The notes under the pieces were generated by a model. That model ran no database searches. It was not told the origin of the DNA and saw nothing but the letters and a program-made list of their open reading frames with translations. Shown piece after piece: positions 6,395-53,041 of a DNA stretch of 64,000 nt. The position numbers were made by a program, and so were the translations under genes. Position 1 is the stretch's first letter. Every line of letters begins with the position of its first letter. Origin of the DNA: Marivita sp. (lineage in GTDB: Bacteria > Pseudomonadota > Alphaproteobacteria > Rhodobacterales > Rhodobacteraceae); NCBI RefSeq assembly GCF_022763305.1, contig NZ_JALEGT010000062.1, positions 1 to 64,000 of the forward strand, in the 5' to 3' direction.

Positions 6395-6438
6395 GATGAT
6401 GCATCGAAGCATCATCGCGTTTCGATTGATCGAAACGC
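6395..6438. repeat. Tandem abutting palindromes, 44-nt module (copy A)
   Basis: Two perfect inverted repeats without spacer. 6395-6416 has arms GATGATGC/GCATCATC and loop ATCGAA. 6417-6438 has arms GCGTTTCGAT/ATCGAAACGC and a 2-nt loop. The module starts 14 nt after the nuclease stop and ends one base before the methyltransferase stop. A small CCCC/GGGG stem (6381-6393) precedes it. There is no T-run, so it is not a classic terminator. Loop 1 (ATCGAA) is complementary to TTCGAT in the 5' arm of stem 2. Confidence 0.75.
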
Positions 6439-40537: not shown

Positions 40538-40631
40538 GTCCGATCTGGTCCTGATGTTTCGCACGCGAAACAATGGAGCCGGAACGGTCCTTTTAACCTT
40601 CGAGTAATCCGTCAGAGGGAGCTGCATGTTT

Positions 40632-44598: not shown

Positions 44599-45564
44599 TC
44601 ACGCGAAAAGGGCAGTGGCGAAAAACAGCACAGGGATCAGACCGGCATCCCGGTTGGACCGGAAGAGATGCAGCAGCCGGTCCATGTCATCCAGCTTGAG
44701 GCGCCGCATCTGCCACATCATGTGCCAGCCCATCGCCCAAGGTCCGCCCAACGCGAGCACCAGGGCGAGGATCTCGCCACGCGGAGCCGCGAGGATGATG
44801 GCATAGCCCATCAGCGCAACGGTCAGGACGAGGAACCATGCAAGGTATTTGGGGGTCGCCTCACCAAAAAGGCGAGCGGTGGATTTGACGCCGATCAGCG
44901 CATCGTCTTCCTTGTCCTGATGGGCGTAGATTGTGTCATAGAACAGTGTCCACGCCATGCCGGCCAGGTAGAGGCACACCGCAGGCCATTGCAGTTCGCC
45001 CGTATGGGCCGTCCATGCAAGCAGCGCACCCCAGTTGAAGGCGATGCCGAGAAAGATTTGCGGCCACCACGTGAAGCGTTTGGCGAAGGGATAGATCGCA
45101 ACGGGCAACAGCGCGATGATGCCCAGCAGGATCGCCTGAACCGGGAAGGTGATCAGGATACAGAACGCGATAAGGGATTGGATCACGGCCCAGCTCAGCG
45201 CCTGTTTCACCGTGACCTGACCGGACGGGATGGGTCGCGAGGCGGTACGGGCAACGCTGCCGTCGAAGTCGCGGTCGGTGATGTCGTTCCATGTGCAGCC
45301 TGCGCCACGCATCAGGAAGGCGCCAATGCCGCAGCCCAGGATGATCCACGCATCAAAGAGCCGCGCCTCTCCGGTGTGGAACATCGCAAGTAGCGCACCC
45401 CAGACGCAGGGCAGATAGAGCAGCCATGTGCCGATGGGACGATCCGCGCGGCTTAATCGCAGGTACGGGCGAGACCATGCCGGGGCGAGCGTGTCGACCC
45501 AGTTGCCCGTGACGGCATCGGCAACCTGACCGCTCTGGTCTGGTGAAATCTGCGGGCCGGGCAT
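44599..45564 (-). CDS. ubiA: 4-hydroxybenzoate polyprenyltransferase
   Basis: A 321-residue inner-membrane prenyltransferase of ubiquinone synthesis, attaching the polyprenyl tail to 4-hydroxybenzoate. It has about nine hydrophobic helices and the two aspartate-rich Mg-diphosphate motifs: NDITDRDFDG near residue 93 and DKEDD near 220. The ATG at 45564 (GGAG nine bases upstream) matches the usual N-terminal length; the upstream extension overlaps rsmE and is rejected. It is head-to-head with rsmE with almost no gap, so their promoters overlap or lie inside each other's genes. Confidence 0.94.
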   Translation of the reverse strand: MPGPQISPDQSGQVADAVTGNWVDTLAPAWSRPYLRLSRADRPIGTWLLYLPCVWGALLAMFHTGEARLFDAWIILGCGIGAFLMRGAGCTWNDITDRDFDGSVARTASRPIPSGQVTVKQALSWAVIQSLIAFCILITFPVQAILLGIIALLPVAIYPFAKRFTWWPQIFLGIAFNWGALLAWTAHTGELQWPAVCLYLAGMAWTLFYDTIYAHQDKEDDALIGVKSTARLFGEATPKYLAWFLVLTVALMGYAIILAAPRGEILALVLALGGPWAMGWHMMWQMRRLKLDDMDRLLHLFRSNRDAGLIPVLFFATALFA

Positions 45565-45576
45565 ATGTGTTGCTCC

Positions 45577-46308
45577 ATGAATTCGAAGATGCGTGCGAAA
45601 GTCAGGCTTTTTGTAGAGCAGCCGCTTGGGGCGGTACAACCGGTTCCTCTGACGCGGGAGCAGGCGCATTACCTGTTTGGCGTGATGCGGATGGCGGTTG
45701 GCGACCCTGTGGCGCTGTTCAACGGGCGCGATGGCGAGTGGCAGGCCGAGGTCGCCGAGGCGGGCAAGCGCGGTGGCATCCTTGTGTGCCGGGAGCCGTC
45801 GCAGCCGCAGGTGATGCCGCCGGATGTCTGGCTGATGTTCGCGCCGATCAAGAAGGCGCGCACGGATTTCATCGTGGAAAAGGCGGTGGAGATGGGCGTG
45901 CGGCGGGTGATGCCCGTGCAGACCGCGCACACCAATTCCGAGCGCATCCGGCAGGACCGGTTGCAGGCCCATGCGGTCGAGGCGGCCGAGCAATGCGGCG
46001 GGGTCTTCGTTCCCGAGGTGACTGATCTCGCACGGTTGGATCGGGTGTTGGGCAAGTGGGACCCGTCGCGGCGGATCGCATTTTGCGACGAGGCGCTGGC
46101 GGGAGAGAGCGGGCGACTGCCGGATGCGCCGGGGCCGTGGGCGATCCTGATCGGACCCGAAGGCGGATTTTCCGAGGACGAGCGCAGGCGGCTGCGGGGG
46201 ATGGACTGCGCCAGCCCCATCAGCCTCGGGCCACGTATCCTGCGGGCCGATACGGCTGCGGTGGCGGCGTTGACGCTGTGGCAAAGCACGCTGGGGGACT
46301 GGGCGTGA
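45577..46308 (+). CDS. rsmE: 16S rRNA m3U1498 methyltransferase RsmE
   Basis: A 243-residue SPOUT-class methyltransferase. The PUA-like N-domain (LTREQAHYLFGVMRM) and the C-terminal knot with ILIGPEGGFSEDE and SLGPRILRADTAAVAAL form the SAM pocket. Start uncertain: ATG at 45565, 45577 and 45589 are all in frame; 45577 is chosen by expected length, without a clear ribosome-binding site. It is followed within two bases by a tandem palindrome module (46311-46354) and then a small membrane protein gene. Confidence 0.9.
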   Translation: MNSKMRAKVRLFVEQPLGAVQPVPLTREQAHYLFGVMRMAVGDPVALFNGRDGEWQAEVAEAGKRGGILVCREPSQPQVMPPDVWLMFAPIKKARTDFIVEKAVEMGVRRVMPVQTAHTNSERIRQDRLQAHAVEAAEQCGGVFVPEVTDLARLDRVLGKWDPSRRIAFCDEALAGESGRLPDAPGPWAILIGPEGGFSEDERRRLRGMDCASPISLGPRILRADTAAVAALTLWQSTLGDWA

Positions 46309-46310
46309 CG

Positions 46311-46354
46311 GATTTTCGGTCGACCGAAAATCGCACATCCGTCGACGGATGTGC
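46311..46354. repeat. Tandem abutting palindromes, 44-nt module (copy B)
   Basis: Two perfect 22-bp palindromes side by side: 46311-46332 (arms GATTTTCGGTC/GACCGAAAATC) and 46333-46354 (arms GCACATCCGTC/GACGGATGTGC). Both have GTCGAC at the exact centre but otherwise unrelated sequence. The module begins two bases after the rsmE stop and ends 18 bp before the next start. No T-run follows. Confidence 0.85.
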
Positions 46355-46372
46355 GGCTCCCGGTGGCCCGCG

Positions 46373-46903
46373 ATGAGCTTTATCCGTCCCGAAGTAAGCG
46401 CGACGATCCTGCGTTGGCGCGAGGCGTTGATCGGGGCTGCGGTGCTGCTGCTTGGGGTCTATTGGGTCGTGGGCGTCAGGCCCGGCCTTCTTACTTGGAT
46501 CGGCTATCTGGCCCTGTTTCTGGGGGCGGCGCTGTTCTTTGCCGGGCTGCAGCGCGGACGCGCGCGGATGGGTGGCGGCGGGCCGGGCGTGGTGCAGGTG
46601 GTGGAACGGCGGATCGGCTATTTCGGGCCGCTGAATGGCGGGTTGGTGGATCTGGACGCCATGACGTCGCTCAGCCTCGACCCGACGGAACACCCGCGCC
46701 ATTGGATCATCACGCACGAGGGCGGACCGGCGCTGCACATTCCCGTGAACGCGGAAGGCGCGGATGTCCTGTTCGATGCCTTTGCCAGCCTGCCGGGGCT
46801 GAGCCCGGGCCGTGTGGCGGCGACCTTGAAACACGAGGGCACCGGGCCAATTGTGCTCTGGCGCAGGGCTGACCTTCAAAAACGGATCCAGAGCCTGCAT
46901 TGA
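46373..46903 (+). CDS. Membrane protein of unknown function
   Basis: A 176-residue protein that I do not recognise. Two adjacent hydrophobic segments (about 18-36 and 41-58) are followed by a soluble domain with VVQVVERRIGYFGPLNGG and a Leu/Pro-rich end. No catalytic motif. The ATG at 46373 starts just after the palindrome module. It lies between rsmE and gshA, probably co-transcribed with one or both, with the soluble part on the cytoplasmic side if the two helices form a hairpin. Confidence 0.7.
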   Translation: MSFIRPEVSATILRWREALIGAAVLLLGVYWVVGVRPGLLTWIGYLALFLGAALFFAGLQRGRARMGGGGPGVVQVVERRIGYFGPLNGGLVDLDAMTSLSLDPTEHPRHWIITHEGGPALHIPVNAEGADVLFDAFASLPGLSPGRVAATLKHEGTGPIVLWRRADLQKRIQSLH

Positions 46904-46966
46904 CAGCCCCGGGAAATCAGCCCAAGGCTGACCCCGATTGACGAGCAGACAGACCGGAGACGCGCC

Positions 46967-48337
46967 ATGTCCATCCCCCAATCCGGCGGCGGGCCCATCG
47001 AACACCACGACCAGCTGGCCGAATATCTGGCCTCGGGGTGCAAGCCCAAGGATGACTGGCGCATCGGCACCGAGCACGAGAAGTTCGGCTATTGCAAGGA
47101 TACGTTGCGCCCCCTGCCCTATGAAGGCGAACGTTCGATCCTTGCCGTCCTGCAGGGTCTGCGTGACGCGCATGGCTGGGACCCCGTGATGGAAGGCGCA
47201 AACCTGATCGGTCTGGTGAAGGATGGCGCGAACATCTCGCTCGAGCCCGGTGGGCAGTTGGAACTGTCCGGTGCGCCATTGGAGACGATCCACCAGACCT
47301 GCGACGAGGTGAACGACCACCTGCGCGACGTGAAAGACATTGCCGACAAGATCGGTGTGGGGTTCATCGGGCTGGGTGCTGCGCCGATCTGGCGGCACGA
47401 GGACATGCCGCTGATGCCCAAGGGGCGCTACAAGCTGATGGACAGCTACATGGAAAAAGTCGGCACCGCTGGCACGACCATGATGCGGCGCACCTGCACG
47501 GTTCAGGTGAACCTCGACTTTTCGTCCGAGGCAGACATGGTGCAGAAGCTGCGCGTCGCATTGGCGTTGCAGCCGGTGGCCAACGCGCTCTTTGCCACAT
47601 CGCCGTTCTTCGAAGGCAAGCTGAACGGACACAAAAGCTGGCGCGGGCGGGTCTGGCGGCATCTGGACGATGCACGCACAGGGATGCTGCCTTTCGTGTT
47701 CGAGGACGGTTTCGGGTTCGAGGCGTGGGTGCAATACGCGCTCGATGTGCCGATGTATTTCGTCTACCGCGATGGGGTTTATCACAACGCGCTGGGGCAG
47801 TCGTTCCGCGATTTCCTCAAGGGTGAATTGCCCGCAATGCCGGGAGAAATGCCGACCCTGTCGGATTGGGCGGATCACCTGACGACGATCTTCCCCGAAG
47901 CGCGGGTGAAGAAATACATCGAGATGCGTGGTGCCGATGGTGGCCCGTGGCGACGGCTGTGCGCGCTGCCTGCGTTCTGGGTCGGTCTGACCTATGACCA
48001 GTCGGCGCTGGATGCGGCGTGGGATCTGGTCAAGGACTGGGATGCCGAAACCCGCGAGGGGCTGCGTGTGGCCGCGTCGGTGGACGGGCTTCAGGCCGAG
48101 GTGAACGGGATCAGGATGCACGATCTTGCGCGCGAAGCGTTGAAGATTTCCGAGGCCGGTCTGGTGGCGCGGGCGCGTCCCGGTGCGGGCGGTCTGGTGC
48201 CGGACGAGACCCATTTCCTGAACGCGCTGAAGGACAGCGTGGAGACCGGCAAGACCATGGCGGACGAACTGATCGACCATTACAACGGCGACTGGAACGG
48301 CGACATCAGCCGGATTTACGGCGAGTACAGTTACTGA
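46967..48337 (+). CDS. gshA: Glutamate-cysteine ligase (proteobacterial/plant type)
   Basis: A 456-residue ligase forming gamma-glutamylcysteine, the first step of glutathione synthesis. Motifs of the alphaproteobacterial/plant class are present: RIGTEHEKFGY (about 32-42), SLEPGGQLELSG (about 91-102), MRRTCTVQVNLDF and EMRGADGGPW. It differs in sequence from E. coli GshA. ATG with a CGGAGA ribosome-binding site. The convergent gene is ggt, which degrades extracellular glutathione, and the two 3' ends are separated by a palindrome module. Confidence 0.95.
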   Translation: MSIPQSGGGPIEHHDQLAEYLASGCKPKDDWRIGTEHEKFGYCKDTLRPLPYEGERSILAVLQGLRDAHGWDPVMEGANLIGLVKDGANISLEPGGQLELSGAPLETIHQTCDEVNDHLRDVKDIADKIGVGFIGLGAAPIWRHEDMPLMPKGRYKLMDSYMEKVGTAGTTMMRRTCTVQVNLDFSSEADMVQKLRVALALQPVANALFATSPFFEGKLNGHKSWRGRVWRHLDDARTGMLPFVFEDGFGFEAWVQYALDVPMYFVYRDGVYHNALGQSFRDFLKGELPAMPGEMPTLSDWADHLTTIFPEARVKKYIEMRGADGGPWRRLCALPAFWVGLTYDQSALDAAWDLVKDWDAETREGLRVAASVDGLQAEVNGIRMHDLAREALKISEAGLVARARPGAGGLVPDETHFLNALKDSVETGKTMADELIDHYNGDWNGDISRIYGEYSY

Positions 48338-48343
48338 GGCGGT

Positions 48344-48387
48344 GCAACCCTTCGACGGGTTGCGCCCGGCTTTTCGAAAAGCCGGGC
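48344..48387. repeat. Tandem abutting palindromes, 44-nt module (copy C)
   Basis: 48344-48363 has arms GCAACCC/GGGTTGC with loop TTCGAC. 48364-48387 is a perfect 24-bp palindrome with arm GCCCGGCTTT and centre TCGA. Together exactly 44 nt, abutting, between the gshA stop (6 nt) and the ggt stop (8 nt). No T-run on either side. Confidence 0.85.
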
Positions 48388-48395
48388 ACCGTTGA

Positions 48396-49973
48396 TCAAT
48401 ATCCGATCGCGCAGCCGTCCTTGCGCGGATCCGATGCCCCTTCCAGAACGCCATGGTCGTGGATCAGGATCGCCTGGGCGCCCCCGATGGCAACCTCTGG
48501 GGTTTCCACCTCGTGCCCCAAGTCCACAAGCTGCGCCCGGACCGCGTCGGAATAGCCGCGTTCCACCATCAGCTTGCCGTTCTCGGCAAAACAGCGCGGC
48601 GCATCGAGCGCCTCCTGCGGGGCCAGTCCGAAATCGGTCATGTTGGTGACGGCACGGGCATGGCCGCAGGACTGGTACTGACCGCCCATGACGCCGAACG
48701 GCATGGCGACACGGCCTGCGTCGCGGATCATGCCCGGAATGATCGTGTGCATCGGCCGCTTGCCGCCGCCATATTCGTTGGAATGGCCTTCCTGAAGGGT
48801 GAACCCTGCACCCCGGTTCTGGAACAGGATGCCGAATTTCTCGGACGCAATGCCCGAGCCGAAGCTGTGGAAGACCGAATAGATCAGCGACACGACCATG
48901 CGGTCCTTGTCGACAACGGTGATGTAGATCGTGTCCTTGTGCACCGCTTCGCTGAGCGCTGCGGGACCTGCCATCGCCTTTTTCGGGTCGATCAGAGTGG
49001 CCAGTTTCTGCGCCGTCTCCATCGACAGCATGTGATCCAGCTTGGTCATATGCTCGGTATCGGCCACGAAACGGTTGCGCGCGTCATAGGCCAGCTTCGT
49101 TGCCTCGGCTTCGATATGCGCACGCTCTGCGCCGAAGGGATCGAGAGAGGCGATGTCGAACTGCGACAGGATGTTGAGCAGCAGGATCGCCGTCGCGCCC
49201 TGCCCGTTTGGCGGATGCTCGAGCAGCTCGCGCCCCTGATAGGTGCCACTGATCGGCGCGCCGATGGTGGTGGCGGCGTTGGTGAAATCGGCCTCGGTGT
49301 GCACGCCGCCCAGCGCGTTGAGCGTGGCGAGCATGTCTTCGGCAACTTCGCCTTTGTAGAACCCGTCACGCCCGTCTTTTGCGATGCGGCGGAGGACCTC
49401 GGCGTTTCCGGGCAGGCGGAAGACCTGACCGCGTTGCGGGTTGGCGCCTTGCAGGAGGTAATGCGTACGCGCGTGCCCCTGAAGCAGATGCGCATTTTTC
49501 GCCCAATCCCACGCCACACGTTCGGCCACAGGCAGGCCGTTTTCCATATAGTCGATGGCGGGTGCGAGGCTGTCCGCGATGCCAAGCCGCCCCCAACGCT
49601 CGGACATTGTGCAGAAGGCGTCGATCGCGCCCGGCACCGTCACCGCCTCGGGGCCGTAGAGTGGCACTGTTGCCTCACCCCGGTTGCGCAGGTCATCGGC
49701 TTTGGCTCCGGCAGGTGCGCGCCCGGATCCGTTGACCGCGATCACTTCGTCCCCGCCTGCGGGAGAGATCAGGGCAAAGCAATCGCCTCCGATGCCGGTC
49801 ATCGCCGGTTCGGCCTGACCGAGAATCACCGCACCCGCGATGGCGGCGTCCACGGCATTGCCACCGCGCTTGAGGATGTCGACGGCGGCCTGAGCTGCCA
49901 GAGGATGCGACGTGGCGCACATCCCGTTTGTCGCCATCACCGCAGAGCGGCCCGGCATCTGAAAATCGCGCAT
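48396..49973 (-). CDS. ggt: Gamma-glutamyltransferase family protein
   Basis: A 525-residue Ntn-hydrolase precursor that autocleaves before a catalytic threonine. GGNAVDAAIA and GGDCFALI in the large subunit, and the DTIYITVVDKD motif (nucleophile Thr near residue 347), are present, with a GGGKRPMHTI block later. The usual TTHFSV around the nucleophile is changed to TIYITV, so activity may be toward other gamma-glutamyl or acyl compounds. No signal peptide is visible, unlike E. coli Ggt. ATG at 49973 with GGAGGG ten bases upstream. Confidence 0.85.
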   Translation of the reverse strand: MRDFQMPGRSAVMATNGMCATSHPLAAQAAVDILKRGGNAVDAAIAGAVILGQAEPAMTGIGGDCFALISPAGGDEVIAVNGSGRAPAGAKADDLRNRGEATVPLYGPEAVTVPGAIDAFCTMSERWGRLGIADSLAPAIDYMENGLPVAERVAWDWAKNAHLLQGHARTHYLLQGANPQRGQVFRLPGNAEVLRRIAKDGRDGFYKGEVAEDMLATLNALGGVHTEADFTNAATTIGAPISGTYQGRELLEHPPNGQGATAILLLNILSQFDIASLDPFGAERAHIEAEATKLAYDARNRFVADTEHMTKLDHMLSMETAQKLATLIDPKKAMAGPAALSEAVHKDTIYITVVDKDRMVVSLIYSVFHSFGSGIASEKFGILFQNRGAGFTLQEGHSNEYGGGKRPMHTIIPGMIRDAGRVAMPFGVMGGQYQSCGHARAVTNMTDFGLAPQEALDAPRCFAENGKLMVERGYSDAVRAQLVDLGHEVETPEVAIGGAQAILIHDHGVLEGASDPRKDGCAIGY

Positions 49974-52980: not shown

Positions 52981-53041
52981 ATGAAAATTCCTTTTGAATT
53001 TTCACCAAACCATGCCATGAAATTCCGGACGGAATTTTCAT
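52981..53041. promoter_or_regulatory. Double dyad with four related half-sites before the XRE-cupin gene
   Basis: Dyad 1: TGAAAATTC/GAATTTTCA (52982-52990, 52996-53004). Dyad 2: CATGAAATTCCG/CGGAATTTTCATG (53016-53027, 53030-53042) with one bulged base. The outermost arms, ATGAAAATTCC (52981-52991) and GGAATTTTCAT (53031-53041), also pair over 11 bp, so one long hairpin or two local ones can form. It ends about ten bases before the GTG start. Likely an operator of the XRE protein, a translational switch, or both. Confidence 0.6.

Follow-up and report, generated by a model that had tools for sequence, protein, structure and literature searches.

The window analysed here is a 64,000-nucleotide stretch of a Marivita sp. 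genome (NZ_JALEGT010000062.1, positions 1 to 64,000), which carries three short palindromic modules beside gene ends. Copy A is flanked by two convergent genes whose stop codons face it: it starts 14 nt past that of a BglII-type endonuclease gene, and its far edge is 1 nt from that of an MT-A70 family gene. Copy B begins 2 nt past the stop of an rsmE-like RNA methyltransferase gene and is followed, on the same strand, by a gene that has no Pfam match and itself lies ahead of gshA; the second palindrome of B lies 23 nt from the stop and 17-18 nt ahead of the likely ATG (46373) of that next gene. Copy C begins 6 nt past the gshA stop, and its second palindrome is 8 nt ahead of the stop of a convergent gamma-glutamyltranspeptidase gene. 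The gene map comes from our own gene finder, with one call in the window (44599-45669, minus strand) replaced by the RNA methyltransferase open reading frame and the start of the gene 3' of copy B set to 46373. The six palindromes are as follows.

Copy A, hairpin 1, 6395..6416: stem GATGATGC..GCATCATC, the second class II palindrome in minus-strand reading
Copy A, hairpin 2, 6417..6438: stem GCGTTTCGAT..ATCGAAACGC, the first class II palindrome in minus-strand reading
Copy B, palindrome 1, 46311..46332: GATTTTCGGTCGACCGAAAATC, the first class II palindrome
Copy B, palindrome 2, 46333..46354: GCACATCCGTCGACGGATGTGC, the second class II palindrome
Copy C, palindrome 1, 48344..48363: GCAACCCTTCGACGGGTTGC, class I type in the wide sense
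Copy C, palindrome 2, 48364..48387: GCCCGGCTTTTCGAAAAGCCGGGC, class I type in the wide sense

The description of these modules in an earlier note on this DNA was accurate in its geometry: copies A (6395-6438), B (46311-46354) and C (48344-48387) are each a pair of abutting inverted repeats with no spacer and a total of 44 nt, they start 14, 2 and 6 nt past a stop codon without a T-run (by eye), and TCGA forms the central four letters of five of the six dyads, with TTGA in the sixth. Counting Watson-Crick pairs in the DNA, copy A consists of two adjoining hairpins, the first of 8 bp around a 6-nt loop and the second of 10 bp around a 2-nt loop, copy B has 11 bp and 11 (12) bp with no loop, its second palindrome at full length spanning 46332-46355 and overlapping the first by 1 nt, and copy C has 7 bp with a 6-nt loop and then 12 bp. 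Both strands of all three copies are predicted to fold as RNA into two hairpins (z -4.2 to -5.6); in the predicted fold of copy C an extra outer stem closes both hairpins, and one of 200 plus-strand shuffles folded as well.

The copies are not unrelated palindromes that have geometry alone in common, a reading that we ruled out on finding cores common to copies. Instead there are two kinds of element, class I and class II, each with a conserved core. Class II joins a TTTC-SG-TCRA-CS-GAAA-like palindrome to a GATGCGTCGACGCATC-like palindrome, and copies A (minus strand) and B are members. It had been stated that the stem sequences differ completely between copies; in fact, one covariance model, built on alignment A4 (5 of the 20 rows of alignment A3 were dropped), matches A on the minus strand, B and 23 more copies in the same genome. 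The genome thus holds at least 25 full-length class II copies, a lower bound because the best 25 candidates per genome were scored under stricter filters, while a looser search gave 77 matches, a total that overstates the number of copies as it includes opposite-strand partial matches of the same copy. The model also finds matches in all 17 Marivita genomes. Outside the genus there are at least five weak matches in 4 of 247 other genera (best E 3.7e-7), where further weak matches may be missed with the best 25 candidates per genome scored, and the model found none in 73 non-Marivita gshA neighbourhoods (1.41 Mb). Plasmid records gave no match to copy B, and Rfam gave none at gathering threshold across the window, the region 46200-48500 showing two matches far under the gathering score (E 0.37 and 0.56).

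The 25 copies of this genome are 42-44 nt long with 21 or 22 nt from centre to centre. A fixed 44-nt total, considered as a separate constraint, proved superfluous: class II spacing is 21-22 nt and that of class I arrays 21-25 nt, approximately the sum of two half-palindromes. None of the 50 flanks of these copies contains four or more T in 8 nt, a density found at 13 of 53 other intergenic hairpins. The stronger hairpins found over 1.81 Mb of Marivita sequence have as their central tetranucleotide TCGA (68), TCAA (14), CGCG (11), TTGA (10) or GTAC (9), counts that are not independent because the set includes orthologous stretches. An unpaired C-rich right flank (approximately CGCCC) follows the GATGCG hairpin, for example at L039:296-300, in which 17 of the 25 copies have C at the first position, 20 at the third and 18 at the fourth; it is possibly an asymmetric tag. 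A repeat like CTTCGGGGTTTGGGGCAGAGCCCCA directly adjoins three class II copies (L249:2455-2479, L256:2443-2467 and L258:2571-2595), and further repeats with CTTCTTCT are found behind gshA in L102, L110 (reverse strand) and L140.

Class I palindromes have a TTCGAA centre and are grouped in arrays with two to four members, whose centres lie 21-25 nt apart as compiled by hand from Marivita sequence. Copy C belongs here in the wide sense, joined by its TTCGA(A) centre alone, and does not match the one sub-type used for searching (AAG-N4-TTCGAA-N4-CTT, with the reversed pattern as control). This sub-pattern occurs 35 times in the genome of the window and 5 to 80 times per genome across 17 Marivita genomes, against 0-1 for the reversed pattern. 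Of 248 Rhodobacteraceae genera, 61 have at least one match, 30 of them a single one; the control also gives one or two matches in 30 of the 248 genomes (counted by hand), so lone matches are no evidence and we rely solely on the 20 genera with five or more copies (control maximum 2). Five genera (G018, G041, G051, G158 and G202) carry 50 to 99 matches. All four free pairs of the sub-pattern are complementary in 52 of the 60 listed copies of G001-G004 and in 13 of 13 copies in the Marivita stretches examined. Arrays of four palindromes with a period of about 24 nt, the third unit with a TTGCAA core, were seen at L316:1501-1591 (G051) and L315:1501-1592 (G041).

In G051, which is another genus, class I palindromes also occur in a spaced form, one at each end of a non-homologous stretch of about 100 nt (L304 and L320-L339; L320:1106-1262 is an example). 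Among 22 such pairs, picked by spacing from the list of pattern matches, the two 20-nt palindromes are identical in 21 and differ between loci; they lie 105-152 nt apart from start to start, and their interiors share only 15-23 nt matches. By predicted genes 8 pairs are convergent, 10 same-strand, 4 unclear and none divergent, mostly at gene 3' ends, and in 6 of the 8 convergent pairs a palindrome lies within 27 nt of each stop. These pairs widen the question beyond abutting palindromes. The window has two further palindromes. The fixed palindrome TGTTTCG(CGCG or CACG)CGAAACA, at 40555-40572 and in 10 other places in the genome of the window, G000 (reversed pattern, 0), has the look of a protein-binding site and may be parS-like. 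An A-T rich palindrome, TGAAAATTCCTTTTGAATTTTCA, lies at 52982-53004, and a similar one is found in Marivita cryptomonadis beside another hairpin (L094:16046-16091).

Abutting palindromes of this kind are not expected by chance. In an own-genome intergenic sample of 329 stretches (66.5 kb) there are 17 abutting pairs with stems of at least 8 bp, whereas 200 Markov shuffles gave 0.02 on average and never more than 1. The 39 intergenic stretches of the window contain 2 such pairs against none in 1000 shuffles, copy C being outside these counts as its 7-bp stem is below the threshold of 8. A first scan of a 624 kb own-genome sample gave 18 pairs against none in one shuffle, and two congeners, at 200 kb each, gave 6 and 3 against none shuffled. 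The density in shuffled intergenic sequence had been named beforehand in the earlier note as the comparison on which its claim would turn; shuffles yield almost no abutting pairs, which does not refute the claim.

The elements are also strongly placed with respect to genes. In the 624 kb sample, the 7.7 kb of DNA between convergent genes contains 20 TCGA-centred palindromes, the 36.9 kb between same-strand genes 10 and the 12.6 kb between divergent genes none; the 558 kb of predicted coding DNA contains five, of which four are chance-like and one adjoins an array, with one more at an edge. If the palindrome at a contig edge is set aside, all intergenic arrays and single TCGA palindromes of the sample come to within 10 nt of a stop at one of their ends. 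Of the two congener samples, that of G010 had 4 between convergent genes, 1 between tandem genes and 3 within predicted coding DNA, that of G015 had 3 convergent and 1 tandem, and neither had any between divergent genes. The 25 class II copies divide into 11 convergent, 13 tandem, none divergent and one overlapping a predicted gene, and 22 of them lie within 22 nt of a stop, the rest at 65, 83 and 265 nt. Tandem copies are found in mixed orientation relative to the upstream gene, as expected for a symmetric element. Of the convergent gaps of at least 15 nt in the own-genome sample, palindromes are present in 10 of 43 and a T-run hairpin in 5. A separate U-tract hairpin, counted with hairpins overlapping the palindromes excluded, is present in 0 of 27 convergent or tandem intergenic regions with palindromes and in 35 other regions, although mutual exclusion is not significant (p = 0.11 for convergent, p = 1 for tandem).

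Comparison of copies shows that the pairing of these elements is under selection. In the 25 class II copies of this genome, each of the pairs at positions 3 to 10, counted from the centre, obeys Watson-Crick rules in 96-100% of copies, also at positions with four alternating pair types; the outer pairs are variable and covary, while the innermost position is complementary in 9 of 25 copies for the first hairpin and 22 of 25 for the second. The B site, aligned from 16 genomes, has 95.6% of cells paired with double changes at 9 of 18 pairs; none of 500 shuffles reaches the observed double changes, and sliding one column reduces pairing to 47% or less. The C site is 96.5% paired with double changes at 7 of 18 pairs in 11 of the 17 genomes (alignment A2), five others (G003, G009, G004, G007 and G008) having other structures there and G010 not being retrieved. 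In 46 orthologous class II elements, mostly picked from model matches, which over-represents conserved copies, stems differ at 88 of 1472 sites (6.0%), loops at 46 of 368 (12.5%) and the flanks, largely coding, at 13.2% (mean identity 86.8%). Class II stems thus diverge half as fast as loops and flanks. Of the 29 double-changed pairs 25 are Watson-Crick, and 30 pairs are single-changed. This comparison excludes eight pairs without an alignable element and locus L264 (G013:C26), a second and more distant B-locus copy within one assembly, with flanks 83-86% identical, which is probably contamination.

Mismatches show no preference for G.U over A.C: the two are equally frequent in orthologous class II elements (8 and 8), and on the sense strand of tandem genes the mismatches, 3 and 2, are too few to show a preference. 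As G.U is no commoner than A.C, pairing specific to the RNA of one strand lacks support. Pairing at orthologous loci was the other test set beforehand, and the pairing is conserved there with many double changes. The suggestion of a family kept palindromic by compensatory change is supported by these double changes, mostly Watson-Crick. Selection on structure is supported as well, but conserved geometry without conserved sequence is not, as the cores are conserved.

The occupants of the three sites differ among relatives. At the A site, inspected by eye, the double element is present in G000, G006, G011, G012, G013, G015 and G016; G001 and G004 keep it in half-decayed form, and it is missing from G003, G005, G007, G008, G010 and G014; the neighbouring MT-A70 gene was not found in G002 or G009. 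At the B site, G003 lacks the element, and hardly any sequence separates the two genes. As regards the MITE hallmarks of target-site duplication and clean empty sites, this one empty site shows no clear duplication by eye. B is found on both sides of the genus in the gshA tree, a single-gene tree with some low support, so loss in G003 is the simpler reading. At the C site, a U-tract hairpin takes the place of the module in G004 and G007, a single different hairpin is found in G003 and G009, and a different double palindrome in G008. Around the region of the window, every class II match above 40 bits in 14 relatives is at site A or B, and a related double palindrome (30.6 bits, L207:6268-6311) was found in G009 alone among the stretches searched.

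For these families, with their conserved pairing and their position behind genes, we infer a function in RNA. Judged from sequence, the elements may be REP-like dispersed palindromes that act as strand-symmetric double hairpins in 3' untranslated RNA, a reading to which we would give an even chance. The RNA of each element would fold into two abutting hairpins of 8-10 bp; the polymerase would stop further downstream, probably through Rho or by pausing, and the hairpins would then halt 3'-to-5' exonucleases and set the mature 3' end. Since either strand reads as a near-perfect palindrome, this could happen in both directions, so that two convergent genes could share a single element. Ordinary U-tract terminators are found in comparable positions, and two relatives have a U-tract hairpin in place of the module at C. 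In E. coli, Rho-terminated transcripts are processed by 3'-to-5' exonucleases (PMC7815308). In the alphaproteobacterium Z. mobilis, one study reports that predicted intrinsic terminators account for 617 of 2,040 mapped ends and that convergent-gene terminators are over-represented among the mapped intrinsic ones (PMC7566282), which by analogy makes ends without a U-tract plausible in Alphaproteobacteria. Four points count against this explanation: G.U mismatches are no commoner than A.C ones; the same-strand genes flanking B may form one operon, with palindrome 2 nearer the start than the stop; a tolerated mobile repeat would also survive at a 3' location; and the shared cores need more than structure as an explanation.

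That mobile repeat is the substance of one alternative, in which a selfish REP- or REPIN-like element is moved by a transposase in trans, its palindromy either helps mobilisation or is renewed through template switching, and its 3' location reflects tolerance. That copies are dispersed yet share their cores and the C-rich flank on the right would fit this, as would the near-restriction of class II to one genus, the missing B in G003, the double palindrome seen in G009 alone among the stretches searched, and the lack of a G.U preference; compensatory change is described in REPIN hairpins too (PMC3116915). However, the genome has no match to the Y1 transposase family PF01797, all matches above 40 bits around the window's region in 14 relatives sit at A or B, G003 most simply lost its copy, and stems evolve more slowly than flanks, and we consider this account unlikely. 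The hairpins might instead be V-shaped intrinsic terminators that need no U-tract, the abutting pair alone stopping and releasing RNA polymerase without Rho and in both directions between convergent genes. Position and abutting geometry are the same under this account, the class II flanks are devoid of T-runs (0 of 50), and hairpin clusters have been proposed to terminate transcription (PMC8355165). Against this, V shapes make up 0.1% in a survey of 1060 genomes according to the same source, which also cites a study, by its title, on a mycobacterial polymerase requiring a U-tract, and this genome does have T-run hairpins (13 of 53 other intergenic hairpins); Rho-free termination of this kind seems to us likewise unlikely.

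A role at the level of DNA, through cruciform extrusion or a dimeric DNA-binding or nucleoid protein, for instance in absorbing supercoils between convergent genes, would account for near-perfect palindromes on both strands, loop letters that are largely TCGA, the 21 or 22 nt between centres and the enrichment between convergent genes. A protein site, though, would not allow the free choice of letters seen in the outer arms, where only pairing is kept and a position can show up to four pair types, and a DNA dyad would not have a non-complementary innermost position in 16 of 25 first hairpins, so we regard such a role as very improbable.

If the reading as double hairpins in 3' untranslated RNA is right, predictors that look for a U-tract miss a considerable fraction of the transcript ends of these marine bacteria. 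The families also offer a natural experiment on the upkeep of pairing in palindromes of changing sequence. A broader and more speculative idea, which we think rather unlikely, is that Rhodobacteraceae have a U-less, strand-symmetric 3'-end system in which pairing is inherited over sequence, built from abutting arrays in Marivita and from spaced identical palindromes in G051. If true, this would be an unrecognised way of both ending and protecting transcripts, with its own upkeep, matching arms and, in G051, even separate palindromes.

The earlier note knew of no named element answering this description, yet relatives exist: in broad terms the elements agree with a published REP definition, and geometrically with V-shaped (abutting) hairpin terminators. 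In the literature searched, which leaves most subscription journals outside, we found no description combining abutting self-palindromes, covarying arms and 3' placement, nor, among the results listed, a paper on such elements in Rhodobacterales. Broadly defined, REPs are extragenic, palindromic, multicopy sequences with units of about 14-40 nt, a common consensus and no T-rich tail (PMC12306157). The Marivita elements are likewise short, extragenic and palindromic with a consensus, at least 25 class II copies and 35 class I pattern matches, and class II flanks lack a T-rich tail; unlike REPs as described in those sources, their palindromes abut, are near-perfect and are placed beside stops. 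CGTC-tagged REPs, which according to PMC3733652 predominate in Alphaproteobacteria, have 8-9 bp heterogeneous stems with 4-5 nt loops and form dimers without transposase association. Class II differs in having CGTC at the hairpin tip rather than a terminal tag; only 2 of 25 copies have CGTC or GACG in the 8 nt that adjoin the element on the outside. REPINs resemble the Marivita elements as palindrome doublets that form hairpins with compensatory changes, but in PMC3116915 they are inverted REPs with a spacer and associated RAYTs, whereas here two different self-palindromes abut and the REP-associated Y1 transposase family PF01797 has no match in the genome (four candidates scored, assembly 99.72% complete; the control search was positive in 5 of 14 genomes).

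Among terminators, the canonical Rho-independent form of hairpin plus T-run is found at none of the 25 class II copies, nor by eye at A, B or C. The uptake-signal terminators of Neisseria and Pasteurellaceae are similar in being a repeated hairpin sequence enriched between convergent genes, but as presented in PMC1852404 they are Rho-independent with a fixed uptake-sequence stem, while class II arms vary and have no T tail. The closest geometry is in the WebGeSTer scheme (PMC8355165), where class I denotes a hairpin without a poly-U trail and class V consecutive I hairpins with no separation. The Marivita elements share the two unseparated hairpins right after a stop, in classes that are defined without a U-trail, and may by position also terminate transcription; those classes, however, are defined per site by structure, whereas the Marivita sites are sequence families with covarying arms. 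The elements are REP-like by broad definition and V-shaped hairpin pairs by geometry.
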